Origin: Saprospiraceae bacterium
Lineage (GTDB): Bacteria > Bacteroidota > Bacteroidia > Chitinophagales > Saprospiraceae
Assembly (NCBI GenBank): GCA_022841345.1
Contig: JALHRR010000023.1
Location: forward strand, 1-64,000
Length of the DNA: 64,000 nt
Reading direction: 5' to 3'
The number at the start of each line of letters is the position of its first letter. Position 1 is the stretch's first letter. Shown in pieces: positions 13,686 through 27,517 of the stretch. The position numbers and the translations under genes are program-made. The notes beneath the pieces were generated by a model. It was given only the letters and a program-made list of their open reading frames with translations, did no database searches and was not told the DNA's origin.

Positions 13686-14102
13686 TTATTTTCTTTTTAC
13701 CATTTCAAATGTTCCTGAATTTGACCCGGACAGGTTTTGCCATTTTCCTTCTACGAGTTTTCCGGACGGATCAAAAGTTGCTGTACCTATGAGTGGATTA
13801 GGATTCTCTCCACCAACTATATTTGAAACTCTGTACTGAAATATATTATTTTTAAGTTCCCATGTACCGAGGTTTATTCTTAACTCATTGAACCATTGAC
13901 CTTCATTGGTTACTGTTCCATCTTTTTTAATTAATAAATTCACATATTGAGGATCAACCTCCGCTCTTCCATCAATAGTTATTTCGCCTTCCCAAAATCC
14001 AATTATATCAACCTCTGTACTGCTTTTTACTACTTTCTGACATGAATTCATTAAGACTGCATTACAAACAACAAAAAGTGCAATTAAGAATCGGATTTTC
14101 AT
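13686..14102 (-). CDS. Tandem lipoprotein paralogue, copy 4
   Basis: The product has 138 residues and a lipobox at LMNSC. It is one of four neighbouring paralogues with a shared core: GFWEGE near the N terminus, DPQY(V/L)NLL-KKDGT, GTWEL, then SN-VGGENPNPLIGTATFDP and a C-terminal FEMVKRK. The strand pattern resembles small lipocalin-like domains, but I do not recognise a named family. The ATG at 14102 is preferred to 14150 because it aligns with the paralogues and starts the signal peptide. It is closest to copy 3 (shared SGSNSGTFEMVKR). The function is unknown; the exported location is well supported. Confidence 0.75.
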   Translation of the reverse strand: MKIRFLIALFVVCNAVLMNSCQKVVKSSTEVDIIGFWEGEITIDGRAEVDPQYVNLLIKKDGTVTNEGQWFNELRINLGTWELKNNIFQYRVSNIVGGENPNPLIGTATFDPSGKLVEGKWQNLSGSNSGTFEMVKRK

Positions 14103-14166
14103 AGAGTCAAGATAATGCTTAAACGATAAAAGAGCTAAAGTCATTTTCAAATTTCAGCGAAAGCCA

Positions 14167-14583
14167 TCATTCCCTTTTAACCATTTCGAAAGTTCCGGAA
14201 TTCGACCCTGAAAGATTTTGCCAAACACCTTCGAGGAGTTTCCCACCCGGATCAAAAGTAGCAGTTCCTATAAGAGGGTTTGGATTTTCTCCTCCTACAA
14301 CATTAGATACCTGATATCTGAATGCATTCCCTTTTAACTCCCATGTACCTATATTAATTCTTAATCCATCGAACCATTGACTTTCGTTGGTAACAGTACC
14401 ATCTTTTTTAACCAGCAGATTTAAGTACTGTGGGTCGATATCCGGTCTGCCATCAATAATAAATTCACCTTCCCAGAACCCAATAATTTTTACCTTATCT
14501 CTCACCTGCACTTTTTCTTCACATGAGTTTAAGAAGAGCAAATTACTTACGACAAGAAGAAATAATATGTATCTCATATTCAT
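14167..14583 (-). CDS. Tandem lipoprotein paralogue, copy 3
   Basis: The product has 138 residues and a lipobox at FLNSC. It shares the four-copy core (GFWEGEFIIDGRPD, DPQYLNLLVKKDGTVTNE, GTWELKG, VVGGENPNP) and is the nearest relative of copy 4. The spacing to copy 4 is 64 bases, and no terminator or promoter box was seen between them, so the four genes are probably one transcript read from 15491 towards 13686. No catalytic motif is present. A binding or cell-surface role is possible but cannot be read from the sequence. Confidence 0.75.
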   Translation of the reverse strand: MNMRYILFLLVVSNLLFLNSCEEKVQVRDKVKIIGFWEGEFIIDGRPDIDPQYLNLLVKKDGTVTNESQWFDGLRINIGTWELKGNAFRYQVSNVVGGENPNPLIGTATFDPGGKLLEGVWQNLSGSNSGTFEMVKRE

Positions 14584-14639
14584 GCATTCACGATGTTATT
14601 TAAAAGGAACTCATTTAAATTTAATTACAGCAGAGATAT

Positions 14640-15053
14640 TCACTTTCTTTTTACCATTTCAAATTCAGCCGACCCTGTTCCGGATAAATTTTTAATAATT
14701 CCGTTTTTTAAGTGACCCTCTGCATCAAATTCTGCGGTTCCTGTTTGTGGATTTGGAACTTCGCCTCCATACACGTTTGAAATTTGAAACATTAGTTTAT
14801 TACCTTCTAAATTCCAGGTTCCTGTATTGATTCTTATGTTTGACAAGTAACTACTTTCATTTGTCAGTGTCCCGTTTTCCTTGATCAGTAAATTAATATA
14901 CTGGGGATCCAAATCAGGGCGACCAATGGTGATGTAAGTTCCTTCCCAGAATCCAATAATATTTGTGTCTTCCGGCTTTTGAACCTCTTCTTTACAAGAA
15001 GACAATAAAACTAAATGGATTATAACGAATAGAAATAATAAGCTTTTCATCAC
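14640..15053 (-). CDS. Tandem lipoprotein paralogue, copy 2
   Basis: The product has 137 residues and a lipobox at LLSSC. It belongs to the second sub-pair of the array: here the GG motif reads VYGGEVPNPQTGTAEFD and the end reads LSGTGSAEFEMVKRK, features shared with copy 1 but not with copies 3 and 4. This pattern suggests an ancestral duplication giving two types, each of which duplicated again. It lies 24 bases downstream of copy 1. Confidence 0.75.
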   Translation of the reverse strand: MMKSLLFLFVIIHLVLLSSCKEEVQKPEDTNIIGFWEGTYITIGRPDLDPQYINLLIKENGTLTNESSYLSNIRINTGTWNLEGNKLMFQISNVYGGEVPNPQTGTAEFDAEGHLKNGIIKNLSGTGSAEFEMVKRK

Positions 15054-15077
15054 TGCAGATTTGAAATGTTTGACTCA

Positions 15078-15491
15078 TCACTTCCTTTTAACCATCTCAA
15101 ATTTCACTGAACCTGTACCGGAAAGATTTACAATTCTTCCTTCCAACCTGCCCTGAGGATCAAATGTGGCTGTTCCCACCTGAGGATTGGGTACCTCGCC
15201 CCCATAAACATTGGAAACTTGAAACTTTAAAATATCACCATCTAATTCCCATGTTCCAATATTGATTCTGATACCGGAAAGATAGCTTCCCTCAGCAGTA
15301 AGACTACCATCACTTTTAATTAATAAATTCAGGTATTGCGGCTCCAGGTCCGGGCGACCATCTGTAGTATAAGTTCCTTCCCAGAAACCAACAATATCCA
15401 CAATTTCTTTTTCTGTTTGATTCGTTTCATTTTCACAAGCACTCAGCAAGTACATGCTGCTCAGAATAGACAATAAGAGTATCTGTCTCAT
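15078..15491 (-). CDS. Tandem lipoprotein paralogue, copy 1
   Basis: This is the first gene of the four-copy array, with 137 residues and a lipobox at LLSAC. It has the shared core GFWEGTYTTDGRPDLEPQY and VYGGEVPNPQVGTATFDP, ending LSGTGSVKFEMVKRK. A TACATTTG -7 box lies about 45 bases upstream and may drive the whole array. The family is not one I can name; a small beta-rich exported domain is the most that can be said. Confidence 0.75.
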   Translation of the reverse strand: MRQILLLSILSSMYLLSACENETNQTEKEIVDIVGFWEGTYTTDGRPDLEPQYLNLLIKSDGSLTAEGSYLSGIRINIGTWELDGDILKFQVSNVYGGEVPNPQVGTATFDPQGRLEGRIVNLSGTGSVKFEMVKRK

Positions 15492-15535
15492 GTGTTATGA
15501 ATTGTAAGAATTATGTTCATTGGAGTAACGAACTA

Positions 15536-15543
15536 CAAATGTA
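15536..15543 (-). promoter_or_regulatory. Candidate -7 box for the lipoprotein array
   Basis: Minus-strand TACATTTG fits TAnnTTTG and lies 45 bases before the first lipoprotein start. No TTG box at standard spacing was found. Confidence 0.4.
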
Positions 15544-15885
15544 GTACCATAATCCAGGAAATCATATATAATTAAATTGTATTTTATGTTTTTTCCACCT
15601 TTGCTCCAAATGATAGGCTTTATACAATTCATATTAAAGACTTACTATTTTTTATGACTTTACAGCTTTGAGAAATGCAAACGCTGGACAGACATCTGGA
15701 CATAACAAAAAAATAAGATCTAAATTACAGATTAACAAATAATTGTGAATATTATAGATCATTTATCAAACGCAAATTCCAGCCACCTTTTTTTTGCGAT
15801 CAGGTTTTATAGACTGTTCTTTGAAAACGATTGGTGAAATACCCGGTCCGGTTAAGGTTAATTTTCATAGTTCAGATCATATCAG
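15544..15885. other. Gene-free stretch upstream of leuA
   Basis: This AT-rich region lies between divergent transcripts. I found no tRNA, no terminator hairpin, no leucine-rich leader peptide and no full TAnnTTTG box on the plus strand. It must hold the leuA promoter, but I cannot place it. Confidence 0.5.
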
Positions 15886-17058
15886 ATGGGAAATAAAGTT
15901 CATATATTCGATACCACTCTCAGAGATGGAGAGCAAGTCCCCGGTTGTAAGCTTAATACATCTGAAAAGGTAAACCTGGCCCTTCGCCTGGAAGCGCTTG
16001 GTGTAGATATCATTGAAGCAGGATTTCCTGTTTCCAGCCCCGGGGATTTTCAATCAGTAACTGCCATTTCCAAAGTAATTAAAGATGCTGTTGTTTGTGG
16101 GTTGAGCAGAGCTGTAGAGCGCGATATAGAAGTAGCTGCTGAAGCGTTGAAATATGCCCATCGCCCCAGAATACATACCGGTCTCGGTACTTCGGACAGC
16201 CACATTAAATATAAGTTCAATAGCGATCGTGCTACTATTCTTCAATGGGCAGCACAATGTGTCCAAACGGCAAGAAAATATACTGATGATATTGAGTTCT
16301 ATGCTGAGGATGCCGGGCGGACTGACAATGAATTTCTGGCAAGGGTAATAGAAACTGTTATTAAAGCAGGTGCGACGGTTGTTAATATTCCGGATACTAC
16401 AGGATATTGTCTTCCGCATCAGTACGGAGAAAAAATAGCTTATCTGGTCAACAATGTGCCGAATATTGATAAAGCTATTATTTCATGTCATTGTCACAAT
16501 GACCTGGGAATGGCAACTGCAAATTCTATCGCAGGTGTAATCAGCGGCGCCAGACAAATTGAATGTACCATCAATGGACTGGGTGAACGTGCGGGCAATA
16601 CCTCACTGGAAGAAGTGGTAATGGTAATTAGGCAGCATCCTGATTTGGGATTCAAGACCAGAATAGATACTACACAATTATATTCACTCAGCCAGGATGT
16701 TTCAGATATCATGCGCATGCCGGTTCAGGCTAATAAAGCCATTGTCGGGGCTAATGCATTTGCCCATTCTTCCGGAATTCATCAGGATGGCTTCCTGAAA
16801 AATGCTTCAACTTATGAAATCATCAGACCGGATGAAGTAGGAGCACCCGGATCTAAAATAGTGCTGACTGCCCGTAGCGGTCGATCAGCGCTGGCCTTTC
16901 GTTTACAACAGCTGGGATATCAATATGATCGGAATGATATAGATTTCATTTATGAACAGTTTTTGAAGGTAGCCGACTCTGTAAAAGAAGTCGGGGAAGC
17001 TGAACTACGCCAATTGGCCGGATTTCATGCAAACGCATTTAAAACCCAGGCCATATAA
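15886..17058 (+). CDS. leuA: 2-isopropylmalate synthase, short form
   Basis: This enzyme makes 2-isopropylmalate from acetyl-CoA and 2-oxoisovalerate, the first committed step to leucine. [16 protein letters not shown] at the N terminus and [14 protein letters not shown] provide the metal site of the HMGL-like TIM barrel. [13 protein letters not shown] lies in the linker region. The protein has only 390 residues, against about 520 in enterobacterial LeuA, and ends after the linker, so the C-terminal leucine-binding regulatory domain is absent. Homocitrate synthase is a possible alternative for a protein this short, but the leuCDB genes directly downstream settle the role. The gap to leuC is 15 bases. 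Confidence 0.92.
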
Positions 17059-17073
17059 TCTGAATAGCACTTT

Positions 17074-18492
17074 ATGAAAAAGACATTGTTCGATAAAATA
17101 TGGGAAAAACATATAGTACGTGAGGTGCAGGATGATCTTTATGTTCTCTATATTGACAAGCATTTAATTCATGAAGTCACCAGTCCTCAGGCATTTGCGT
17201 CTCTGGAAAAAAGAGGTTTAAAAGTTTTGCGCCCTCAACAAATATTAGCCACTGCTGATCATAATGTCCCCACTACAGATCAGGATCTACCAATTAAAGA
17301 TGATTTATCAGCAAAGCAAGTCGCCCTGCTAACTGAGAACTGCAAAAAACATGGAATAGAATTGTTTGGACTTGGGCATCCTTACCAGGGAATTGTCCAT
17401 GTAATAGGGCCTGAACTGGGTATTACCCAGCCGGGAATGACCATTGTATGCGGGGATAGCCATACCAGTACTCATGGGGCTTTTGGAACTGTTGCATTCG
17501 GGATTGGGACTTCTGAAGTGGAAATGGTACTGGCTACGCAATGCCTTCTACAGACCAAACCAAGGCAAATGCGCATTGAGGTAAATGGAACACTCTCATC
17601 AGGTGTCACCGCCAAGGATGTGATTCTGTATATCATTTCTCAGCTCGGCACCGGGGGAGCTACCGGACATTTTGTGGAATATTCAGGCAATACAATTCGT
17701 ACATTGAGTATGGAAGGACGCATGACAGTCTGTAATATGAGCATCGAGATGGGTGCCAGAGGTGGATTAATAGCCCCTGATGAAATTACTTTCAATTATC
17801 TGGAAGGTAAGCCCTTTGCACCAAAAGGACATGAATGGGAAAAAGCAAAAAATAAATGGTCCTTTTTAACCACAGACGATGGAGCCCATTTTGACAAAAT
17901 ATATCATTTCCAAGCAGAAAACATTCCGCCGATGGTTACTTATGGGACACATCCGGGAATGGGGATACCGGTTGATGTGGCAGTTCCATTTTTGAATTCA
18001 ACAGGACAGGAGGCTTCTGGTGAAGGACTCGAAAAAGCATTGAACTATATGGGTCTGCAATCAGGCCAGTTCATGTCAGGTATTCCTGTTCAGCATGTAT
18101 TCATAGGCAGTTGTACCAATGCGAGGGTAGAGGATTTCAGATTAGCTGCATCAGTTGTAAAAGGCAAGAAAAAGCATGATAGAATCCGAGCTTTGATAGT
18201 GCCGGGCTCTCAACAGGTAGCAAAGCAATTGTCAGAAGAAGGCCTGGATAAAATATTCGAAGAAGCAGGATTTGTAATCCGGCAACCCGGATGCAGCGCT
18301 TGCCTGGCTATGAATGGAGATACAATTCCTTCAGGAGAATATTGTGTATCTACTTCCAACCGCAATTTTGAAGGTCGTCAGGGAAATGGGGCACGCACCA
18401 TCCTTGCAAGTCCTCTGACAGCTGCATTAGCATGCATCACAGGAGAAATATCCGATATCAGATCTTATCCATTTACTCATATCAACAATTAA
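17074..18492 (+). CDS. leuC: 3-isopropylmalate dehydratase large subunit
   Basis: The protein has 472 residues and is of the aconitase family; with LeuD it isomerises 2- to 3-isopropylmalate. The iron-sulfur and substrate motifs are complete: VCGDSHTSTHGAFG, then FIGSCTNARVEDFR and GCSACLAMN, which supply the three cluster-binding cysteines. The C-terminal SNRNFEGRQGNGARTILASP is also typical. It lies seven bases from leuD and is certainly in one operon with it. Length is normal. Confidence 0.97.
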   Translation: MKKTLFDKIWEKHIVREVQDDLYVLYIDKHLIHEVTSPQAFASLEKRGLKVLRPQQILATADHNVPTTDQDLPIKDDLSAKQVALLTENCKKHGIELFGLGHPYQGIVHVIGPELGITQPGMTIVCGDSHTSTHGAFGTVAFGIGTSEVEMVLATQCLLQTKPRQMRIEVNGTLSSGVTAKDVILYIISQLGTGGATGHFVEYSGNTIRTLSMEGRMTVCNMSIEMGARGGLIAPDEITFNYLEGKPFAPKGHEWEKAKNKWSFLTTDDGAHFDKIYHFQAENIPPMVTYGTHPGMGIPVDVAVPFLNSTGQEASGEGLEKALNYMGLQSGQFMSGIPVQHVFIGSCTNARVEDFRLAASVVKGKKKHDRIRALIVPGSQQVAKQLSEEGLDKIFEEAGFVIRQPGCSACLAMNGDTIPSGEYCVSTSNRNFEGRQGNGARTILASPLTAALACITGEISDIRSYPFTHINN

Positions 18493-18498
18493 AATCCC

Positions 18499-19086
18499 AT
18501 GAATCCTATCAACATTATTCAATCTACTTTTGTACCCCTGCCAATTGAAAATGTAGACACAGATCAAATCATTCCTGCAAGGTTTTTAAAATCCTCAGAG
18601 AAAGAAGGTTTTGGGACTCATCTTTTCAACGACTGGAGATATTTGCCTGATGGAACGCCCAATCCGGATTTTGTACTCAACAAATCAAAATATTCAGGTG
18701 AAATTCTGGTTGCCGGCAAAAACTTTGGTTGCGGTTCCAGTCGTGAACATGCTGCATGGGCATTGGCCGGACAAGGGTTCCGCGCTGTGGTATCCAGCTA
18801 TTTTGCTGATATTTTTCAAAATAATGCACTGAATAATGGATTGTTACCTGTACAGGTTACGCAACCATTTTTGCAGGAAATCTTTGCACAAAAGTCTGAA
18901 AGTACACTGACTATCAATTTATATGACTGCTGGATTCAAATAGATAAAACAGGATCCAGATGTCAATTCCCTATTTCATCATATAAGCAGGAATGTCTCC
19001 TCAATGGATTCAGCGACATTGACTATCTCATCAGCATGGAATCCGAGATTGAAGCTTATGAAAAAAATACAAGAGCTACCGCATGA
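18499..19086 (+). CDS. leuD: 3-isopropylmalate dehydratase small subunit
   Basis: The 195-residue swivel-domain partner of LeuC. The N-terminal ENVDTDQIIPARFL and the substrate loop GKNFGCGSSREHAAWAL are diagnostic. Its TGA overlaps the leuB ATG by four bases, so translation of the two is coupled. Confidence 0.97.
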   Translation: MNPINIIQSTFVPLPIENVDTDQIIPARFLKSSEKEGFGTHLFNDWRYLPDGTPNPDFVLNKSKYSGEILVAGKNFGCGSSREHAAWALAGQGFRAVVSSYFADIFQNNALNNGLLPVQVTQPFLQEIFAQKSESTLTINLYDCWIQIDKTGSRCQFPISSYKQECLLNGFSDIDYLISMESEIEAYEKNTRATA

Positions 19087-20213
19087 ACGCTGATCGATCC
19101 ATAAAACATATTGCTGTCCTGCCCGGTGACGGGATTGGCCCAGAAGTCACAAGACAAGCAATTAAAGTATTGGAAGCTGTGACCCAAAACAGCAAATTCC
19201 AATTCAAACTCTCCTACGCCAGCATTGGAGCAGAAGCCATTAATCTTACAGGACAGGCACTTCCGGATGAGACATTGGCACTCTGCAAACAAGCAGATGC
19301 AGTTCTCCTGGGTGCTATTGGTGATCCTTACTTCGATCACAGACCTGAATTGAAGGTACGTCCTGAACAAGGACTATTGCAGCTCAGAAAATCACTTGGC
19401 TTATTCAGCAATATCCGTCCTGTGAGCTATTACGAGGCTAGTTCTCATTTGTCTCCGGTAAGAAAAGAGAGAATTAAGGATTTTGATCTGCTCATTTTAA
19501 GAGAACTCACCGGTGGTATTTATTTTGGAGAGAAAAAAGAAGATAATGAAGCTTTATACGCATCAGATCTGTGCGAATATCACAGAGATGAAATAGAACG
19601 AATAGCCAAAATGGCATTTGATTATGCAGGTAAAAGAAGAGGAAAACTGACACTCGTAGATAAAGCGAATGTCCTGGCCACTTCAAGGTTATGGAGAAAA
19701 GTAGTTCAGGAAATGAGCAGTTCCTATCCCGAAATTGAAGTAGATTATATGTTTGTAGACAATGCTGCAATGCAATTGATACTTTATCCGACACAATTTG
19801 ATGTTATATTAACTGAAAATATGTTTGGTGATATCCTCAGCGATGAAGCCAGCGTATTGAGTGGCTCTCTGGGCTTGTTACCTTCTGCTTCGATAGGAGA
19901 GAAATATGCTTTGTTCGAACCAGTTCATGGCGCTTACCCGCAAGCCAGAGATAAGGATATTGCCAATCCCGTTGCCTCTATTCTCTCAATAGCTATGATG
20001 CTGGACCATTTTGGACTTGATTCTGAAGCTGAGCAAATCAGACTTGCAGTCAAATGGAGCATGGACAATAGTTTTGTGACAATAGATCTTGACCCGGTTA
20101 ATTTCCAAAACACCAGTGTTGTAGGTGATTTGATCGCTGCGCACTTGCAGGATCATCCATCGCCAACAATGGATCAACAGGTAGTTCATCTGGGAAAATC
20201 AAGTATAATTTAA
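19083..20213 (+). CDS. leuB: 3-isopropylmalate dehydrogenase
   Basis: This 376-residue NAD-dependent beta-decarboxylating dehydrogenase oxidises 3-isopropylmalate to the ketoacid precursor of leucine. It carries VLPGDGIGPEV at the N terminus, LLILRELTGGIYFGE around the substrate site, VDNAAMQLI, and ENMFGDILSDEAS with the metal aspartates, followed by FEPVHGAYPQARDKDIANP in the NAD site. Its tail ends just before the leader region that precedes ilvE, so leuACDB and the ilv genes can be read as one long transcript with an internal control point. Confidence 0.97.
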   Translation: MNADRSIKHIAVLPGDGIGPEVTRQAIKVLEAVTQNSKFQFKLSYASIGAEAINLTGQALPDETLALCKQADAVLLGAIGDPYFDHRPELKVRPEQGLLQLRKSLGLFSNIRPVSYYEASSHLSPVRKERIKDFDLLILRELTGGIYFGEKKEDNEALYASDLCEYHRDEIERIAKMAFDYAGKRRGKLTLVDKANVLATSRLWRKVVQEMSSSYPEIEVDYMFVDNAAMQLILYPTQFDVILTENMFGDILSDEASVLSGSLGLLPSASIGEKYALFEPVHGAYPQARDKDIANPVASILSIAMMLDHFGLDSEAEQIRLAVKWSMDNSFVTIDLDPVNFQNTSVVGDLIAAHLQDHPSPTMDQQVVHLGKSSII

Positions 20214-20257
20214 AAATAAATATATATGCATTATAAACTAGCGATGAGTAATTCATT

Positions 20258-20265
20258 TATGTTTG
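20258..20265 (+). promoter_or_regulatory. Candidate -7 box ahead of the ilv leader
   Basis: TATGTTTG fits TAnnTTTG. A start near 20272 would place the whole leader peptide and attenuator in the transcript. No TTG box is seen at the usual spacing, so read-through from leuB remains possible. Confidence 0.3.
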
Positions 20266-20304
20266 ACCCTAACAACTCACTCTATGCAAGGAACGAATAA
20301 ATAC

Positions 20305-20406
20305 ATGGCATCATTAATGGCTAACTCCAATACTGGATTTCCCATGGTGATTATTATGGTGATTATTAGCATTATTATTATTCCTGCAACGAAGGGAGGT
20401 GTATGA
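20305..20406 (+). CDS. ilv leader peptide (attenuation sensor)
   Basis: This is a 33-codon reading frame with no longer protein to overlap. Codons 15-26 (20347-20382) read VIIMVIISIIII: eight isoleucines and two valines in twelve residues. It ends seven codons later with TGA at 20404-20406, thirty bases before the terminator hairpin. An in-frame ATG at 20284 would add seven residues. By analogy with ilv leaders of enterobacteria, the ribosome pauses here when charged tRNA-Ile or tRNA-Val is scarce. The peptide itself probably has no function. The next gene, ilvE, begins the isoleucine/valine genes, which fits. Confidence 0.85.
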   Translation: MASLMANSNTGFPMVIIMVIISIIIIPATKGGV

Positions 20407-20451
20407 TTTTTATGAAGTAAAACGAAAAGCAACATAAAAAAACCGCCTCCC
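20394..20451 (+). promoter_or_regulatory. Antiterminator pairing of the ilv attenuator
   Basis: GGGAGGTG (20394-20401), inside the last codons of the leader, can pair with CGCCTCCC (20444-20451), eight pairs with one G-U. The second segment contains most of the left arm of the terminator, so the two structures exclude each other. A ribosome paused in the Ile/Val run leaves GGGAGGTG free; one that reaches the stop codon covers it. Confidence 0.75.
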
Positions 20452-20472
20452 GAAAAGAGGCGGTTTTTTTTT
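20436..20472 (+). terminator. Intrinsic terminator (ilv attenuator)
   Basis: The stem CCGCCTC/GAGGCGG (20443-20449 with 20457-20463), extended by seven A-T pairs, has a seven-base loop and a long T-run. It lies 30 bases before the ilvE ATG and after the Ile/Val-rich leader, which makes it a regulated rather than a plain terminator. Confidence 0.93.
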
Positions 20473-20502
20473 GCCCTTAAACAAAAAAAACCGCTGAAGC
20501 TT

Positions 20503-21399
20503 ATGTATTACTCAGATGAAACCGTAGTCTACCGTGATGGCCAGTTTATCTCTGCCCGCGATGCCAATACCAGCTTATATGATCAGTCTTTACATTATGG
20601 TTATGCCGTATTTGAAGGAATTCGTTCCTACTCGACCTCAGTAGGTACCCGGGTTTTCAAGGCTGAAGATCATTATGAGCGCCTGATTCGCTCCTGCAAA
20701 CTACTGCACATTCCATTCAATTATGAAGTGAATGAACTGACCGATATCACCTATGATCTGCTGCAAAGAAATGGACTGGAAGACGCCTATATCCGTCCCA
20801 TGGTTTATTGTCCACCCAATATGACATTGATCAAAGCACAATCATCCCACCTGTTTATTGCAGTCTGGAAATGGGGTACCTACCTGGGTGACAACTTGCT
20901 GAGATTATGTACTTCAAGCTATAGACGGCCCAATCCGGATGCATTTAAAATTGAAGCCAAGGCATCCGGGCACTATGTAAATTCTATACTGGCCACTTCA
21001 GAAGCAAAGGAAAAAGGATTTGATGAAGCATTATTACTCGATGTGAATGGGAATGTGGCGGAAGGTCCCGGAGCTAATCTGTTTTTTGAAAAAGATGGAA
21101 AAATAGTTACTGCCCCCCTCGGTCATATCCTTCCTGGCATTACAAGAGCTACTACTATAAGCCTTTGCCAGCGATATTCTATTCCGATAGAAGAAAGATA
21201 TTTCACTGTGGAAGAGTTGAAATCGGCAGATAGCGCATTCTTCTGTGGAACTGCTGCTGAAATCATAGGTATTCAGTCTCTGGACCAAACCATTTTTCCA
21301 AAAGAATGGGTCAATACCAAAGGTGCATTTCTGCAAAAGGTTTACAAACAACTTGTATTGGCTGAACCCCTTCCTGCTCAACCAGGAACTCATTTATAA
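20503..21399 (+). CDS. ilvE: Branched-chain amino acid aminotransferase
   Basis: This 298-residue fold-type IV PLP enzyme performs the last transamination to isoleucine, leucine and valine. [13 protein letters not shown] precedes the active site; the PLP lysine is K153 in [24 protein letters not shown] and [15 protein letters not shown] bind the cofactor phosphate. FFCGTAAEI near the C terminus is also conserved. It is the first gene after the attenuator, so its expression should fall when isoleucine and valine are plentiful. The gap to ilvD is 11 bases. Confidence 0.96.
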
Positions 21400-21410
21400 T
21401 TGAATTAAAA

Positions 21411-23090
21411 ATGGAAATCAATAAATACAGTAAAACACTTACACAAGACCCAACTCAACCGGCTGCTCAGGCAATGTTGTATGGTATTGGACTCAGCAAA
21501 TCAGATATGAACAAGGCTCAGGTAGGAATAGTGAGTATGGGTTATGAGGGTAATACCTGCAATATGCACCTTAATGATCTTGCTAAAACCGTCAAGGAAG
21601 GTGTTACAAATTCCGGTTTAATTGGGCTCATTTTTCACACCATCGGGGTCAGCGATGGCATGAGCAATGGTACAGATGGTATGAGATATTCTTTGGTGAG
21701 CAGAGATTTGATTGCAGATTCTATAGAAACTGTTTGTGGTGCTCAGTATTATGACGGCTTGATTGCAGTGCCGGGATGCGACAAGAATATGCCCGGGTCT
21801 CTTATTGCAATGGGCAGATTGAATCGTCCTGCAATCATGGTGTATGGAGGAACGATTGCTGCCGGCCATTATAAGGGCAAATCTCTCAATATAGTTTCTG
21901 CATTTGAAGCGCTGGGAGAACGCATGACCGGACAGCTCAGTGATGAAGATTTCGAAGGAATAGTTCAACATGCTTGTCCGGGTGCAGGTGCCTGCGGAGG
22001 TATGTACACAGCCAATACTATGGCTGCTGCCATTGAAGCTTTGGGAATGAGTTTGCCTTATTCTTCCTCTAATCCTGCCTTAAGTCCTGAGAAATCAGTG
22101 GAATGCGCAGTAGCAGGAAAGGCTATTCGCATTTTGCTGGAAAAAGACATTAAACCAGCTGACATCATGACAAATGCTGCTTTCAAAAATGCACTCGTGG
22201 TAGTTACAGTACTGGGAGGATCCACAAATGCAGTGCTGCATCTGATTGCCATGGCTAAAAGTGTTGGATTATCTCTTACTCTGGATGATGTGCAGGATGT
22301 GAGTGACAAAACACCATTTCTGGCGAATCTGAAACCATCCGGTCAATACCTTATGGAAGACCTGCACTTCATCGGAGGAGTCCCGGCGGTAATGAAGTAT
22401 TTGCTGGAGCTGGGAATGATTGATGGCAGCTGTCTGACTGTAACTGGTAAAACAATAGCAGAAAATCTGGCCAATGTGGCAATTCCGGATTTTGAAAATC
22501 AGGATATTTTTTATCCTATACATCAGGCAATCAAGCCTACAGGCCACTTGCAAATGCTATATGGCAATCTCGCAGAAGGTGGTAGTGTTGCTAAAATTAC
22601 CGGCAAGGAAGGAGAATTATTCTGCGGCCCGGCCCGGGTGTTCGATGGAGAAAAATCACTGATAGAAGGCATTCAAAATGGTAGGGTACAGAGAGGAGAT
22701 GTAGTCGTCATCAGATATGTAGGTCCCAAAGGTGCCCCCGGCATGCCTGAAATGCTAAAACCCACTTCCGCGCTCATTGGAGCAGGATTAGGAAAAAGTG
22801 TTGCGCTGATCACAGATGGAAGATTTAGTGGTGGTACCCACGGATTTGTGGTGGGTCATATTACCCCTGAAGCAAGTGAAGGAGGGAATATTGCATTGGT
22901 GCAGGATGATGATATCATTACTATCAATGTACTTACAAAGATCATTCAACTGGAACTTACAAAGGAGGAACTGGAAATACGTCGCGGGAATTGGAGCGCT
23001 CCACCACCGGCTGCCAGTAAAGGAGTATTGTACAAATACATACAGTCGGTAAAATCGGCATCAGAGGGCTGTGTCACTGATGAATATTAA
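21411..23090 (+). CDS. ilvD: Dihydroxy-acid dehydratase
   Basis: The 559-residue iron-sulfur enzyme dehydrates the dihydroxy acids to 2-oxoisovalerate and 2-oxo-3-methylvalerate. Cluster ligands are in GCDKNMPG and in [16 protein letters not shown]. The C-terminal domain has [21 protein letters not shown], which holds the metal and catalytic serine region. It lies in the ilv operon after ilvE; the gap to ilvB is about 48 bases. Length is standard. Confidence 0.97.
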
Positions 23091-23138
23091 AAAAGGAGTA
23101 GAAAGGTTTATTTGACGTTTTTAAAAAAAAGAAAAATT

Positions 23139-24887
23139 ATGCATGCTGCATCCAAACAAGCCTTACCGGAACAGGCAAATGAAGAGGCAAAAGCCCAGGA
23201 AATATTGTCCGGATCAGAAATAGTGTTAAGAAGTCTTTTGGCTGAAGATTCTGAAATTGTATTTGGATATCCGGGAGGTGCTATTATGCCCATATATGAT
23301 GCATTATACGACTATCAGGACAGGATTCGGCATATTCTCGTGCGACATGAGCAGGGTGCCATCCATGCTGCTCAGGGTTTTGCCAGAGCATCCGGAAAGG
23401 TAGGTGTAGTATTTGCCACAAGTGGCCCCGGTGCTACTAATCTGGTGACTGGCCTCGCTGATGCATTAATTGACAGCACTCCGCTCGTATGCATCACAGG
23501 GCAAGTGTATGCGCACCTTCTCGGTACGGATGCATTTCAGGAAACGGATGTGATCAATATCACGGCACCTGTAACCAAATGGAACTTTCAGGTGACCCGG
23601 GCAGAGGAGCTGGCACCAACCCTTGCCAAAGCATTTTACATTGCAGCCAGTGGAAGACCCGGACCTGTTCTCGTGGATGTCACTAAGAATGCACAATTAG
23701 AAAAAATTTCATTTGAAGGTTATACTCCCTGTAAGCATATTCGCAGCTATCAACCCATTCCCAAACTTAACCACACACTGATCGCTGAAGCAGCAGCCTT
23801 GATACAATCTGCCGAAAAACCGCTGGTAGTTTTTGGTCAGGGAGTGATATTGGGCAAAGCAGAGAAAGAATTCAAAGCATTTATCGAACATGCTCAATTA
23901 CCTGCCGCCTGGACGATTCTTGGGCTGAGTGCACTTCCGACTGATCATCCACTTAATATGGGTATGCTGGGAATGCATGGCAACTATGGCCCCAATGTGC
24001 TGACTAATGAGTGTGATGTGCTGATCGCTATCGGAATGAGATTTGACGATCGTGTGACCGGGAAACTGGATGCATATGCAAAACAAGCAAAAGTGATTCA
24101 CATAGATATAGATGCTTCTGAAATTGATAAAAATGTAAAAGCTCACATTGGCATCTGCGGAGATTGTAGAGAAGTACTGCCTGAACTGACCAAAAAGCTC
24201 ACAACTCAAAACAGACATTCATGGATTGAGCGATTTGAATATTTCAGAACAGAAGAAAGAAAAGTAGTCATTGAACCGGAATATCACCCTGAAGAAGGAA
24301 TGCTGACAATGGCTGAGGTCATTAATGCAGTCAATATGCAGGTGAATGGGGAAGGAATTGTAGTTACTGATGTAGGTCAGCATCAAATGGTCACCTGTCG
24401 TTATGCAGCATTTAATAAAAGCAGAAGCAATATTACATCCGGTGGATTGGGAACGATGGGATTTGCACTTCCAGCGGCTATCGGAGCTCAGACGGGTGCA
24501 CCCGAAAGACCTGTGATCGCTGTGATTGGAGATGGTGGTTTTCAAATGACCATTCAGGAACTTGGTACTATCATGCAGTATAAAATTCCTGTAAAAATAT
24601 TGATTCTCAATAATCAATTCCTTGGCATGGTGCGCCAATGGCAGGAGCTCTTTCACGACAGAAGATATTCATTTGTAGAGATGGATAATCCGGATTTTGT
24701 AGCCATCGCAGCTGGATATCGTATCCCCGGAAAAACAATCAAAGACAGAGAAAACCTTCAGGAGGCTATCAGAGAAATGATGCAAACCCCGGGACCCTAT
24801 TTACTGGAAGCCATTGTCAGGAAAGAAGGAAATGTATTTCCGATGATTCCACAGGGATGTAGTGTCAGTGAGGTGAGACTATGTTAG
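23139..24887 (+). CDS. ilvB: Acetolactate synthase large subunit
   Basis: The enzyme has about 582 residues from the ATG at 23139; a TTG at 23112 would add a lysine-rich stretch and is less likely. This ThDP/FAD enzyme condenses pyruvate with pyruvate or 2-oxobutyrate. The catalytic glutamate lies in VRHEQGAIHAAQGFARASG. IGMRFDDRVTGK belongs to the FAD domain, and the ThDP motif runs from GDGGFQMTIQEL to ILNNQ. The small subunit normally follows directly, but here 412 bases of repeat-like DNA separate ilvB from ilvN. Confidence 0.96.
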   Translation: MHAASKQALPEQANEEAKAQEILSGSEIVLRSLLAEDSEIVFGYPGGAIMPIYDALYDYQDRIRHILVRHEQGAIHAAQGFARASGKVGVVFATSGPGATNLVTGLADALIDSTPLVCITGQVYAHLLGTDAFQETDVINITAPVTKWNFQVTRAEELAPTLAKAFYIAASGRPGPVLVDVTKNAQLEKISFEGYTPCKHIRSYQPIPKLNHTLIAEAAALIQSAEKPLVVFGQGVILGKAEKEFKAFIEHAQLPAAWTILGLSALPTDHPLNMGMLGMHGNYGPNVLTNECDVLIAIGMRFDDRVTGKLDAYAKQAKVIHIDIDASEIDKNVKAHIGICGDCREVLPELTKKLTTQNRHSWIERFEYFRTEERKVVIEPEYHPEEGMLTMAEVINAVNMQVNGEGIVVTDVGQHQMVTCRYAAFNKSRSNITSGGLGTMGFALPAAIGAQTGAPERPVIAVIGDGGFQMTIQELGTIMQYKIPVKILILNNQFLGMVRQWQELFHDRRYSFVEMDNPDFVAIAAGYRIPGKTIKDRENLQEAIREMMQTPGPYLLEAIVRKEGNVFPMIPQGCSVSEVRLC

Positions 24888-25299
24888 AAGAGCGGAGAAC
24901 GGAGAGTGAGAGCGAAGAGATAACAGCCATTTATGAGTTATGAGTGCAACAGCCAGTTAATAATTGACAACTGACAATTGATAATTTATAATGAACAGCT
25001 GGGGGATAAGTGGCGAGGTATGTGTGAAACAACCAAAGAAAATAGCCTGACTTATGGTTGCAATATAGGGACGCAATACAATGCGTCTCCTCTCTGCACA
25101 AAAAGCCTGCGTGATTTGAAATGCGTCAGGGATAGCAGCGGTGATAGTCCGACCAAAGGGAGGGCTATCAGTACGCAGACCGGAAGAACGCAGTGGCGCC
25201 GGGCAAGTACCAAAGCCGCGCATAGCCCGGCCGTCCCCAATGATTTGGGGACGGAGACGCCCAAAAACAAAAAAATGTCTTTAAACCAATGTTAAAATT
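24888..25299. repeat. Mosaic of short repeat-like modules between ilvB and ilvN
   Basis: The 412 bases contain no credible gene. From left to right: a purine-rich piece; AACAGCC words at 24922, 24948 and (as AACAGCT) 24994; an AT-rich piece with TTGACA-like tandem words near 24961; a near-palindrome at 25068-25090 (GGGACGCA with TGCGTCTCC); an imperfect stem GATAGTCC/GGGCTATC between about 25141 and 25170; and a perfect ten-base stem CCGTCCCCAA/TTGGGGACGG at 25231-25254. The style matches the small dispersed palindromic elements common in Bacteroidota and cyanobacteria. Two short reading frames here are rejected. Confidence 0.6.
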
Positions 25300-25851
25300 A
25301 TGTCCAAACAAGCATTTACGATAACGGCCTACGCGGAGGATAATGTGGGTCTTCTCAACAGGATCTCTATCATATTCTCCAGACGGAAAATCAATATTGA
25401 CAGTCTGAATTCATCTCCAAGTGAGGTGGAGGGGATACATCGGTTTACCATTTTGATTCATGAAACTATTGATATGATCAAAAAAGTGGTGAGGCAAATC
25501 GAAAAACAGGTCGAGGTGCTGAAAGCATTTTACAGTACAGACGATGAGATCATCTGGCAGGAAATGGCGCTGTATAAAATTCCTACTGATGAAATTGCTG
25601 AAAAAGTAAAGGTCGAAAGATTGCTGCGCGAATTCGGTGCCAGAGCCGTAGTTATACGCAAAGATTATACAGTATTTGAAGTGACAGGACAACGGGAGGA
25701 GACTGACAAAGTCCTGAAGGTACTGGAACCATACGGGCTGATAGAGTTTGTCAGGAGTGGCCGGATCGCAATCATCAAAGCCAGCAAAGGAATTCACGAT
25801 AGTCTGATCGAGCTGGAGCAAAGGGATCCATTGGAACACATACACATTTAA
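25300..25851 (+). CDS. ilvN: Acetolactate synthase regulatory (small) subunit
   Basis: The 183-residue partner of IlvB confers valine feedback and full activity. The N-terminal ACT domain starts FTITAYAEDNVGLLNRISIIFSRR and includes NIDSLNSSPSEVEGIHRFTI, where the valine-binding residues lie. The C-terminal small-subunit domain includes RAVVIRKDYTVFEVTGQREETDKVL. The size is typical of bacterial IlvH/IlvN. It lies 24 bases before ilvC. Confidence 0.95.
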   Translation: MSKQAFTITAYAEDNVGLLNRISIIFSRRKINIDSLNSSPSEVEGIHRFTILIHETIDMIKKVVRQIEKQVEVLKAFYSTDDEIIWQEMALYKIPTDEIAEKVKVERLLREFGARAVVIRKDYTVFEVTGQREETDKVLKVLEPYGLIEFVRSGRIAIIKASKGIHDSLIELEQRDPLEHIHI

Positions 25852-25874
25852 AAAATTATATAAAATCTGAAAAA

Positions 25875-26915
25875 ATGGCAACAATTAATTTTGGCGGGGT
25901 GATCGAAGAAGTGGTTACCCGGGAGGAATTTTCACTGGAAAAGGCGAGACATGTGCTTGCAAATGAGATAGTAGCAGTGCTGGGTTATGGCGTTCAGGGG
26001 CCGGCACAGGCACTTAACATGAGAGAAAATGGTATCAATGTAATCGTGGGGCAGCGGGTGGATTCTCCGAGCTGGTCAAAAGCATTGGAGGATGGCTGGG
26101 TTCCGGGTGAAAGTTTGTTTGATATAGAAGAAGCAGTTCAAAAGGGGACAATTTTACAGTTTTTACTGTCTGATGCAGGGCAAATCCAGCTTTGGCCAGT
26201 CGTGAAATCTCATCTGAGCCCTGGTAAAATGCTTTGCTTCTCTCATGGATTCGGAATTACCTACAGTGATCAGACCGGGATTATTCCTCCGGAGAATGTG
26301 GATGTTGTACTTGTAGCTCCAAAAGGCTCAGGAACATCTGTGAGAAGATTGTTTTTGCAGGGGAAAGGGATCAACAGCAGCTATGCAATTCATCAGGACG
26401 TCAGCGGAAATGCGCGTGAGAAAGTCCTGGCATTAGGAATTGCTGTCGGCTCAGGGTACTTGTTTGAGACTGACTTTCGTAAGGAAGTGTACTCAGATCT
26501 TACCGGTGAACGTGGAACCCTGATGGGAGCCATTGCCGGAATTTTCGAAGCGCAGTATGAAGTCTTACGCAAACAGGGACATAGTCCGTCTGAAGCATTT
26601 AATGAAACTGTAGAGGAGTTGACTCAATCATTGATGCCGCTTGTAGCAGAAAATGGCATGGACTGGATGTATGGCAATTGTTCGACGACGGCCCAAAGAG
26701 GGGCATTGGACTGGAAAGGCAAATTTAAAGCGGCAACATTGCCAGTTTTTGAATCCTTGTACAGTGAAGTTGCTAGCGGAAGAGAAACAACGCGAGTCAT
26801 CGAAACTTGCAGCAAACCTGATTACAGGGAAAAACTCAATGAAGAATTGACTGAACTGCGGAGTTCTGAGCTTTGGCTGGCAGGTGCAGCGGTGAGGAAG
26901 TTGAGGCCGGGATGA
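25875..26915 (+). CDS. ilvC: Ketol-acid reductoisomerase, class I
   Basis: This 346-residue enzyme carries out the alkyl migration and NAD(P)H reduction of acetolactate and acetohydroxybutyrate. The nucleotide-binding loop reads LGYGVQGPAQALN (residues 36-48), where many homologues have GYGSQG. FSHGFGITY, VAPKGSGTSVRR and the metal-site region DLTGERGTLMGAIAGIFEAQ follow. Cofactor preference cannot be decided by eye. A hairpin that may terminate transcription follows six bases after the stop. Confidence 0.95.
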   Translation: MATINFGGVIEEVVTREEFSLEKARHVLANEIVAVLGYGVQGPAQALNMRENGINVIVGQRVDSPSWSKALEDGWVPGESLFDIEEAVQKGTILQFLLSDAGQIQLWPVVKSHLSPGKMLCFSHGFGITYSDQTGIIPPENVDVVLVAPKGSGTSVRRLFLQGKGINSSYAIHQDVSGNAREKVLALGIAVGSGYLFETDFRKEVYSDLTGERGTLMGAIAGIFEAQYEVLRKQGHSPSEAFNETVEELTQSLMPLVAENGMDWMYGNCSTTAQRGALDWKGKFKAATLPVFESLYSEVASGRETTRVIETCSKPDYREKLNEELTELRSSELWLAGAAVRKLRPG

Positions 26916-26920
26916 ACGAA

Positions 26921-26949
26921 CAAAAAAGGTACTAAATGTACCATTTTTG
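26921..26949 (+). terminator. Probable terminator after ilvC
   Basis: The stem CAAAAAAGGTAC / GTACCATTTTTG has one mismatch and a five-base loop, and its right arm ends in a T-run. It sits directly after ilvC, so ilvA may have its own promoter. Confidence 0.55.
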
Positions 26950-27517
26950 TGAAGTGAACCGAGTAGTGAAGCGAGCCCCGTCGAGCAAAACTACCCGGCT
27001 ACTCCAAATTCGTATGAAACAGAATGAACAGCCCTGAGAAGAAGCTGTTGGGCCTTTGGCCTTTAGCTTTTGGAAAACAGCCGGGTAGATGCTGCAAGCA
27101 ACAAGCCACAAGCTTCAAGGTAGCAGCCGGGTGTGAGTTTCGCGTGTGTGAACCTTATCCCCGCCTTTTCTTTGGAGGAGAAAGGGGAATACTCCTTAAG
27201 GAAGTTGCGCAACTACCTCTCTTTCCAAGAGAGGGGTCGGGGCTGAGTTTAGCCTCGGAATGTAACTTGAGCCTCGCGTCAAGATGCGAGTAAACAGCCG
27301 GGAAGAAGCTGGCTCTTGTTTTGTGCGTGAGCCCATCACCTCCGTATAAATTGGCTGCGTAGCAGCAATTTATTACGGAGACATCACTTTTTCAGGGCTA
27401 GTACCCTGAAAAAACATCACCTTTCGAGGCGAAGCCGAAGAAAGGCATCACCCCTTCGACGAACAGACCCTCGAATTAAGTTTCTATTTTTTAGTACATG
27501 ACAAAATCCCGATAGAC
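26950..27517. repeat. Mosaic of repeat-like modules between ilvC and ilvA
   Basis: This stretch of nearly 570 bases has no credible gene. AACAGCC words recur at 27027, 27076 and 27293, the last two extended to AACAGCCGGG, with GCAGCCGGG at 27123. Between them lie a CAAGC-rich piece (27090-27120), a CCTCTC/GAGAGG hairpin near 27220 and a CTTTTCT/GGAGAAAGG-type piece near 27165. The last third is a hairpin array punctuated by CATCAC, annotated separately. The 89-residue reading frame at 27024-27293 has no protein-like pattern and crosses these modules. Confidence 0.55.
27334..27451. repeat. Three hairpins separated by four CATCAC words
   Basis: CATCAC occurs at 27334, 27382, 27415 and 27446. 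Each interval holds one hairpin: CTCCGTATAAATTG / CAATTTATTACGGAG; TTTTTCAGGG / CCCTGAAAAA with a six-base loop; and CCTTTC / GAAAGG around GAGGC-GAA-GCC. The stems are unrelated in sequence, but the layout repeats exactly: word, stem-loop, word. Confidence 0.6.

Follow-up and report, generated by a model that had tools for sequence, protein, structure and literature searches.

What is the function of the 289 bases that, on direct reading of the sequence, separate the end of leuB (20213) from the ATG of ilvE (20503) in the window, the whole 64,000-nucleotide stretch of Bacteroidota DNA analyzed here? NCBIfam confirms the names of the surrounding genes (leuA, leuC, leuD, leuB, ilvE, ilvD, ilvB, ilvN, ilvC, and ilvA). 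The contents of the gap, and their conservation in relatives, make it very probable that it houses a ribosome-mediated transcription attenuator sensing charged tRNA-Ile and tRNA-Val.

Anatomy of the leuB-ilvE gap

A first-pass annotation of this DNA had described a 33-codon frame with eight Ile and two Val codons, and this is exact when the sequence is read directly (Table 1). Its anatomy holds throughout; its coordinates do not, as they begin at ATG 20284, seven codons before ATG 20305 in the same frame, and it is the latter that starts the 33-codon form. The upstream ATG is preceded by pyrimidine-rich CTCACTCT, and this context, together with the promoter spacing, makes 20284 a start no less likely than 20305. 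In the 33-codon numbering, Ile occupies codons 16, 17, 20, 21, and 23 to 26, and Val occupies codons 15 and 19. Leu codons are absent among these control codons, and the use of Ile and Val without Leu matches the downstream genes. Short reading frames rich in codons for the end products of the pathway are found in relatives as well, where Ile and Val are accompanied by some Leu.

Table 1. Coordinates of the attenuator components and related features (window positions unless a locus is given)
Feature	Location	Strand	Description
Candidate internal promoter	20258..20265	+	TATGTTTG; matches the flavobacterial sigma-A -7 box TAnnTTTG
Leader ORF, upstream in-frame ATG	20284..20406	+	40 codons, MQGTNKYMASLM...KGGV; CU-rich context and promoter spacing
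Leader ORF, second ATG	20305..20406	+	33 codons, MASLMANSNTGFPMVIIMVIISIIIIPATKGGV; TGA at 20404-20406; f2-type leader length
Control codons	20347..20382	+	8 Ile and 2 Val within 12 codons
Strand 2	20394..20401	+	GGGAGGTG; antiterminator 5' strand, in the last leader codons
Intrinsic terminator	20436..20472	+	14-pair stem, 7-nt loop, U-run
Strand 3	20444..20451	+	CGCCTCCC; antiterminator partner, overlaps the terminator left arm
ilvE	20503..21399	+	First gene after the attenuator; ilvD, ilvB, ilvN, ilvC, and ilvA follow
Tandem Ile/Val units	L010, L011, L014, L070-L073, L077, L082, L085, L093, L109		Before ilvE or ilvD; also L013 by eye
Trp leader	L202:747-903, contig C6		MSSLFQIANNWWHTVQSRSAYSFLT; upstream of trpE; WW, terminator, 10-pair antiterminator (p 0.004 versus shuffles)
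Aromatic leader	L205, 163 to 20 bases before the prephenate dehydratase start, contig C1	-	MARQASFYWSFCSFFYFQKVDRKSFA; 7/10 aromatic, terminator
His leader	L200:1192-1356, contig C93		MICNNTHINHHHHLPPGVSMCS; upstream of hisG; HHHH, then terminator

The strong intrinsic terminator noted ahead of ilvE is also present, with 29 bases between the leader stop and its stem. It has the form AAAAAAACCGCCTC-CCGAAAA-GAGGCGGTTTTTTT (stem-loop, 20436 to 20470), lies between the leader and the first structural gene, and covaries in relatives as described below. Our terminator scan lists this hairpin on the minus strand only, perhaps because the plus-strand scan took the U-run as part of the stem. Strand 2 starts 12 nt 3' of the last Ile codon and forms eight pairs, one of them G.U, with strand 3 in the left arm of the terminator, as the first-pass annotation had proposed, and the two stems are mutually exclusive in the predicted folds. 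With both arms present, the forced antiterminator and the forced terminator have the same predicted energy (-23.4 kcal/mol), so the outcome would be set by which of them forms first, as an attenuator requires. The stretch from 20389 to 20454, which a stall at the control codons would free, is predicted to fold into the antiterminator (-18.8 kcal/mol, z -4.81). For the sequence that a ribosome at the stop codon would leave exposed downstream (20419 to 20476), the predicted fold is the terminator (-22.7, z -5.35). Leader, hairpin, and pairing were reproduced together in 0 of 1,000 dinucleotide shuffles of the leuB-ilvE gap, and the pairing score of the window was reached in 0.6% of shuffles of the 5' strand region. 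No 1:2 protector hairpin stands out from shuffles in the window (p 0.55), and locus-by-locus searches for one mostly gave results no better than shuffles. In the fold predicted without a ribosome, the ACAACUCACUC stretch upstream of ATG 20284 pairs imperfectly with the strand-2 region. Just upstream of the ilvE start there is also a partial copy of the terminator left arm (AAAAAAAACCGC, 20484 to 20495), which is able to pair with the right arm and might influence how ilvE is translated from read-through transcripts.

The flavobacterial sigma-A -7 box is given as TAnnTTTG (PMC9723704). The sole match in the gap, TATGTTTG, lies 26 nt before ATG 20284, and none follows the terminator. Of the 119 leaders, 33 have a TAnnTTTG in the 80 nt preceding them, compared with 6.4% of shuffled controls, and this enrichment, together with the position of TATGTTTG, makes an internal promoter likely; transcription from it would start near 20271. 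The first-pass annotation was right in placing the element between leuB and ilvE. Its further proposal that ilv is controlled separately from leu is plausible, given the TAnnTTTG between leuB and the leader, a region before leuA that has no hairpin, no TAnnTTTG, and no Leu-run leader, and an attenuator that likewise sits between leuB and ilvE in four relatives (L076, L080, L084, and L087). A leu read-through transcript would likewise cross the attenuator. Elsewhere in the cluster, the ilvB-ilvN gap (24888 to 25299) contains a perfect TTGACA-17-TATAAT and several short stretches that recur elsewhere in the genome (19 matches, including its own place), and beside leuA the minus strand at 13686 to 15491 carries four tandem similar ORFs of 137 to 154 aa that look lipoprotein-like by eye.

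We infer that the leader is translated, that its translation is coupled to transcription from the candidate promoter, and that the outcome responds to Ile and Val. RNA polymerase, probably starting near the position given above, would transcribe the leader with a ribosome behind it. If Ile or Val were short, the ribosome would stall in the run of control codons, leaving strand 2 free to pair with strand 3 before the right arm is synthesized; with the terminator blocked, ilvE-ilvD-ilvB-ilvN-ilvC, and perhaps ilvA, would be transcribed. If both amino acids were plentiful, the ribosome at the stop codon would cover strand 2, strand 3 would pair with the right arm, and transcription would end near 20472.

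Distribution and conservation among relatives

The 109 IlvE-relative loci comprise the window, 2 loci from its own family, 15 from named genomes, 28 from a draw across the phylum, and 63 from a neighboring family, f2, which is probably Chitinophagaceae, since L141 groups with Chitinophaga. In the window family, IlvE was matched at an E value of ≤1e-60 in 3 of 199 genomes, window included. The named genomes returned 62 loci, of which the 15 with at least 54% identity were counted; 47 remote loci (L020 to L066; ≤34% identity) were left uncounted, with L023 alone inspected among them. Matches were found in 29 of 395 genomes of the phylum draw (window included) and in 69 of 195 f2 genomes. L137 duplicates L006, with 300 identical upstream bases, and was dropped except where counts are given out of 109. 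For ilvD, we took the best 29 loci, excluding the window's own, among 133 family genomes with ilvD.

Our detector called an element where an Ile/Leu/Val-rich leader, a terminator, and an antiterminator occurred together with a pairing score of at least 16, the threshold also used for the background. It did so upstream of ilvE at 82 of the 109 loci and, for ilvD, at 13 of the 29 best family loci, against a background of none of the 178 stretches (703 bases each) in the rest of the window and 1 of 422 stretches in relatives. With the threshold lowered to 13, the count was 88 of 108 at ilvE and stayed at 13 of the 29 best loci at ilvD, and leader plus terminator, with pairing ignored, was present at 92 of 108 ilvE loci. 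Within f2, the element was found at 62 of 69 loci, the misses including one duplicate and one contig end (L150). Relatives lacking the Ile/Val run or the competing stems, which the first-pass annotation had named as evidence against its reading, do occur (at score 13, the element is missing 20 times among the 108 loci for ilvE and 16 times among the 29 best for ilvD), but they are not the rule at ilvE. Several loci missed by the detector resemble attenuators by eye (L013, L016, L083, and L086 at ilvE and L099 at ilvD), and six others (L017, L018, L067, L075, L088, and L094) have nothing attenuator-like upstream. The record containing L013 is labeled Candidatus Nitrotoga and has a Flavobacterium-like ilv locus; as it groups with L011, it is probably a mis-binned contig.

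The leaders nearest to that of the window in sequence come from f2 loci, namely, L080 (...VVVIIIPATFGGGV), L076, L079, and L084, and the ilvD-locus leaders of the window family include MSFNNSIIIIIISVIVTII (L106) and MKFNLHIVNIISIVIIHKE (L110). The four relatives with an attenuator behind leuB share with the window the gene order leuB-[attenuator]-ilvE-ilvD, and the window IlvE groups, with weak support (85/78), with two f2 genomes. With this grouping and the 3 matches among 199 family genomes in view, we considered that an attenuator-ilvE module may have been gained horizontally. At the nearest IlvD relative (L096/L133 of genome G146; 75%), leuB abuts ilvD, with neither ilvE nor an attenuator, in an otherwise similar cluster (leuACDB-ilvDBNCA).

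Compensating changes and conserved Ile/Val runs, which the first-pass annotation had suggested looking for in relatives, are both present in a 62-row alignment that omits L143, L157, L171, and L191 (long or overlapping ORFs) and L087. The terminator helix is paired in 93.5% of cells and changes on both sides at 7 of 10 pairs, with a covariation score of 0.291 versus 0.113 in shuffles (0 of 500). The antiterminator helix is paired in 87.6% of cells, compared with 46 to 66% when slid, and 3 of its 9 pairs have changes on both sides. Of 500 shuffles, 5 attain its covariation score and 132 attain as many doubly changed pairs. This weak covariation arises because the sequence is nearly fixed. Within the alignment, the evidence for the antiterminator is thus mostly conservation, and the evidence across divergent families is stronger. 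Ile or Val predominates at codons 18 to 25 (window numbering), with occasional Leu at 18 to 20, and entropies there are 0 to 0.28 at the second position and 0.40 to 1.84 at the third, a pattern of almost fixed second and variable third positions that indicates constraint on the amino acids and not on the RNA. Over 119 elements, which include doubtful ones (the second unit of L078, L089, and the Leu-rich L090 and L091), residues are 24.3% Ile, 13.1% Val, and 6.7% Leu, although the detector accepted Leu.

Stronger evidence for the antiterminator comes from pairing each terminator with its own or a foreign partner, with no pairing filter applied. For all 119 elements, the own partner scores 18.92 and foreign partners 14.57 (sd 0.26), and for the 52 elements that do not belong to the f2/Chitinophaga/window set, the values are 18.40 and 13.15 (sd 0.41); neither own value was reached in 5,000 permutations, counts that are not exact probabilities because related loci are not independent. 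Together with the sequence and the predicted folds, this suggests a terminator-excluding antiterminator that would be freed by a stall at the control codons. The geometry of ribosome-controlled attenuation, claimed at the outset from the window alone, has passed the sequence tests run here, with codons conserved and stems compensated.

The same data bear on the possibility that the hairpin is simply the terminator of the leuACDB transcript, that ilv has a separate promoter, and that both the ORF and the pairing of strand 2 arose by chance. The hairpin does lie behind leuB and is flanked by A- and T-runs, as bidirectional operon-end terminators are, but we consider this explanation highly improbable: the terminator precedes ilvE at L005, L006, L007, and L009, where the 2.1 to 3.5 kb read upstream contain no leu homologue; the leader codons are conserved; strand 2 fits its own terminator; and the one TAnnTTTG of the gap precedes the leader. 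There is similarly very little likelihood that some other factor, such as a protein, another RNA sensor, or occlusion of the ilvE start site, acts through the same terminator and antiterminator. In its favor, the right arm is able to pair with AAAAAAAACCGC, immediately ahead of the ilvE start, but such control would leave the codon-level conservation unexplained, and no Rfam family, the Thr, Leu, Phe, and Bacteroid-trp leader families included, reached its gathering cut-off among the matches listed for window positions 15400 to 27500 or in 27 relatives (15 + 12). T-boxes were likewise neither listed in that part of the window at an E value of ≤5 nor found at the gathering score in the 27 relatives.

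Start region, tandem units, and leaders elsewhere in the genome

The five bases before the leader AUG (-5 to -1) are 81% pyrimidine (246/305) in 61 f2/Chitinophaga-type leaders. The corresponding values are 46% (162/350) upstream of ilvE at 70 loci of this type and 36% (96/265) for 53 other leaders. In several cases (e.g., L005, L141, L154, L192, and L197), a CCTCC-like box stands directly before the leader ATG and is complementary to GGAGG in the antiterminator strand. The start region may therefore be able to pair with this GGAGG. Exchanging own for foreign strand 2 makes little difference to the pairing of the pyrimidine box, as strand 2 hardly varies; if the pairing is real, strand 1 would double as the start site and couple initiation to the switch.

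Two leader-terminator units in series were found by the detector at 13 loci, or 12 once the spurious second unit of L078 is dropped (Table 1). There is precedent for attenuators in series in the mgtCBR operon of Salmonella (PMC3641672). We offer, as a speculation that we regard as possible and rather doubtful, that leader attenuation in Bacteroidota is old and widespread and has an architecture of its own, in which the strand-1 pyrimidine box of Chitinophagaceae-type leaders doubles as the start site and, in other families, tandem attenuators act in a graded or AND-like manner.

Three further leaders were found in the same genome, so that in all four cases (ilv, trp, phe, and his) the enriched residue fits the pathway. 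At L202, where the best NCBIfam match of the gene is trpE_most, below its cut-off, the predicted fold of the Trp leader includes a hairpin resembling a 1:2 pause hairpin. The gene at L205 is identified as prephenate dehydratase by Pfam PDT, and the antiterminator there consists of six pairs, GACCGG:CCGGTC (p 0.022). For hisG, the antiterminator did not outperform shuffles in our test (p 0.53). Leaders of this kind were not found upstream of leuA, the aspartokinase-like/homoserine dehydrogenase gene, the second homoserine dehydrogenase gene (L204), or the chorismate-binding gene at L201, so the device does not extend to all pathways.

That the leader frame instead codes for a small, functional, hydrophobic membrane protein, with the Ile/Val bias reflecting a transmembrane segment and the terminator being incidental, would suit its length and hydrophobicity, which fit a single-pass peptide, but it is exceedingly improbable, since the low Leu content despite a Leu-accepting detector counts against a generic membrane peptide, Ile plus Val reach 37% with Phe outside the 12 commonest residues, the leaders differ between families outside the run, the last leader codons track the terminator sequence, and the leaders before trpE, the prephenate dehydratase gene, and hisG carry Trp, Phe/Tyr/Trp, and His.

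Relation to known systems

Two Rfam matches in the window, to Thr_leader (RF00506; 35.2 bits, gathering 55) and Leu_leader (RF00512; 23.9 bits, gathering 50), were rejected as subthreshold. Unrelated sRNA families match the same stretch, which suggests that these matches rest on the terminator hairpin.

Leader attenuators are carried by the enterobacterial ilvGMEDA (ilvL) and ilvBN operons. The proposed attenuator resembles them in having a cognate-codon leader peptide, a competing antiterminator and intrinsic terminator, and an ilv operon downstream. It differs in its phylum, in the lack of Leu control codons, in its location between leuB and ilvE, and in the position of strand 2 inside the last leader codons; unlike in the textbook attenuator, a strong 1:2 protector hairpin is not apparent in the window. 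A further difference is that initiation in Bacteroidota, the host phylum, is described as independent of Shine-Dalgarno sequences (PMC9723704). Outside the Proteobacteria, leader-peptide control of ilv is also described for the attenuators of actinobacteria (PMC1262725, PMC10272879, and PMC11857589), which belong to another phylum and to which we liken the window element by their description.

Within the phylum, the Bacteroid-trp RNA (RF01692), a Bacteroidetes RNA marked as likely cis-regulatory (PMC2864571), has a name that points to trp and gave no match at the gathering score in the 27 relatives. Leader-like sORFs are mentioned for Bacteroides thetaiotaomicron (PMC7366714). Closest in proposed mechanism and in phylum are the leaders of Flavobacterium psychrophilum, for which "strong clues" to leader-peptide attenuation before amino-acid operons are reported, with no leader sequences or covariation in the passages concerned, in a paper whose main text does not contain "ilv" (PMC9723704); leaders of this kind in Bacteroidota were thus already hinted at by this 2021 study. 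Searches of an open-licence library yielded no description of this ilv element in Bacteroidota. Lopatovskaya et al. (2010) may list Bacteroidetes cases. As judged from sequence, the ilv attenuator appears to be a further example of a known mechanism, unmatched by Rfam and well supported.

Such leaders suggest a mode of regulation for the ilv, trp, phe, and perhaps his genes of Bacteroidota, and the elements would give an RNA family unmatched by Rfam 15 in the loci tested. Since attenuation depends on a ribosome that closely follows RNA polymerase, they would also serve as ready-made reporters of transcription-translation coupling in the phylum. In 2010, the leader peptide systems cited outside Proteobacteria and Actinobacteria were the authors' own Firmicutes case and an atypical ermC leader (PMC2965389), and a 2013 survey proposed that amino-acid attenuators may stem from gamma-Proteobacteria, with very few transfers (PMC3766115). 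What appears to be the classical device is found here, with covariation, in several families of Bacteroidota.
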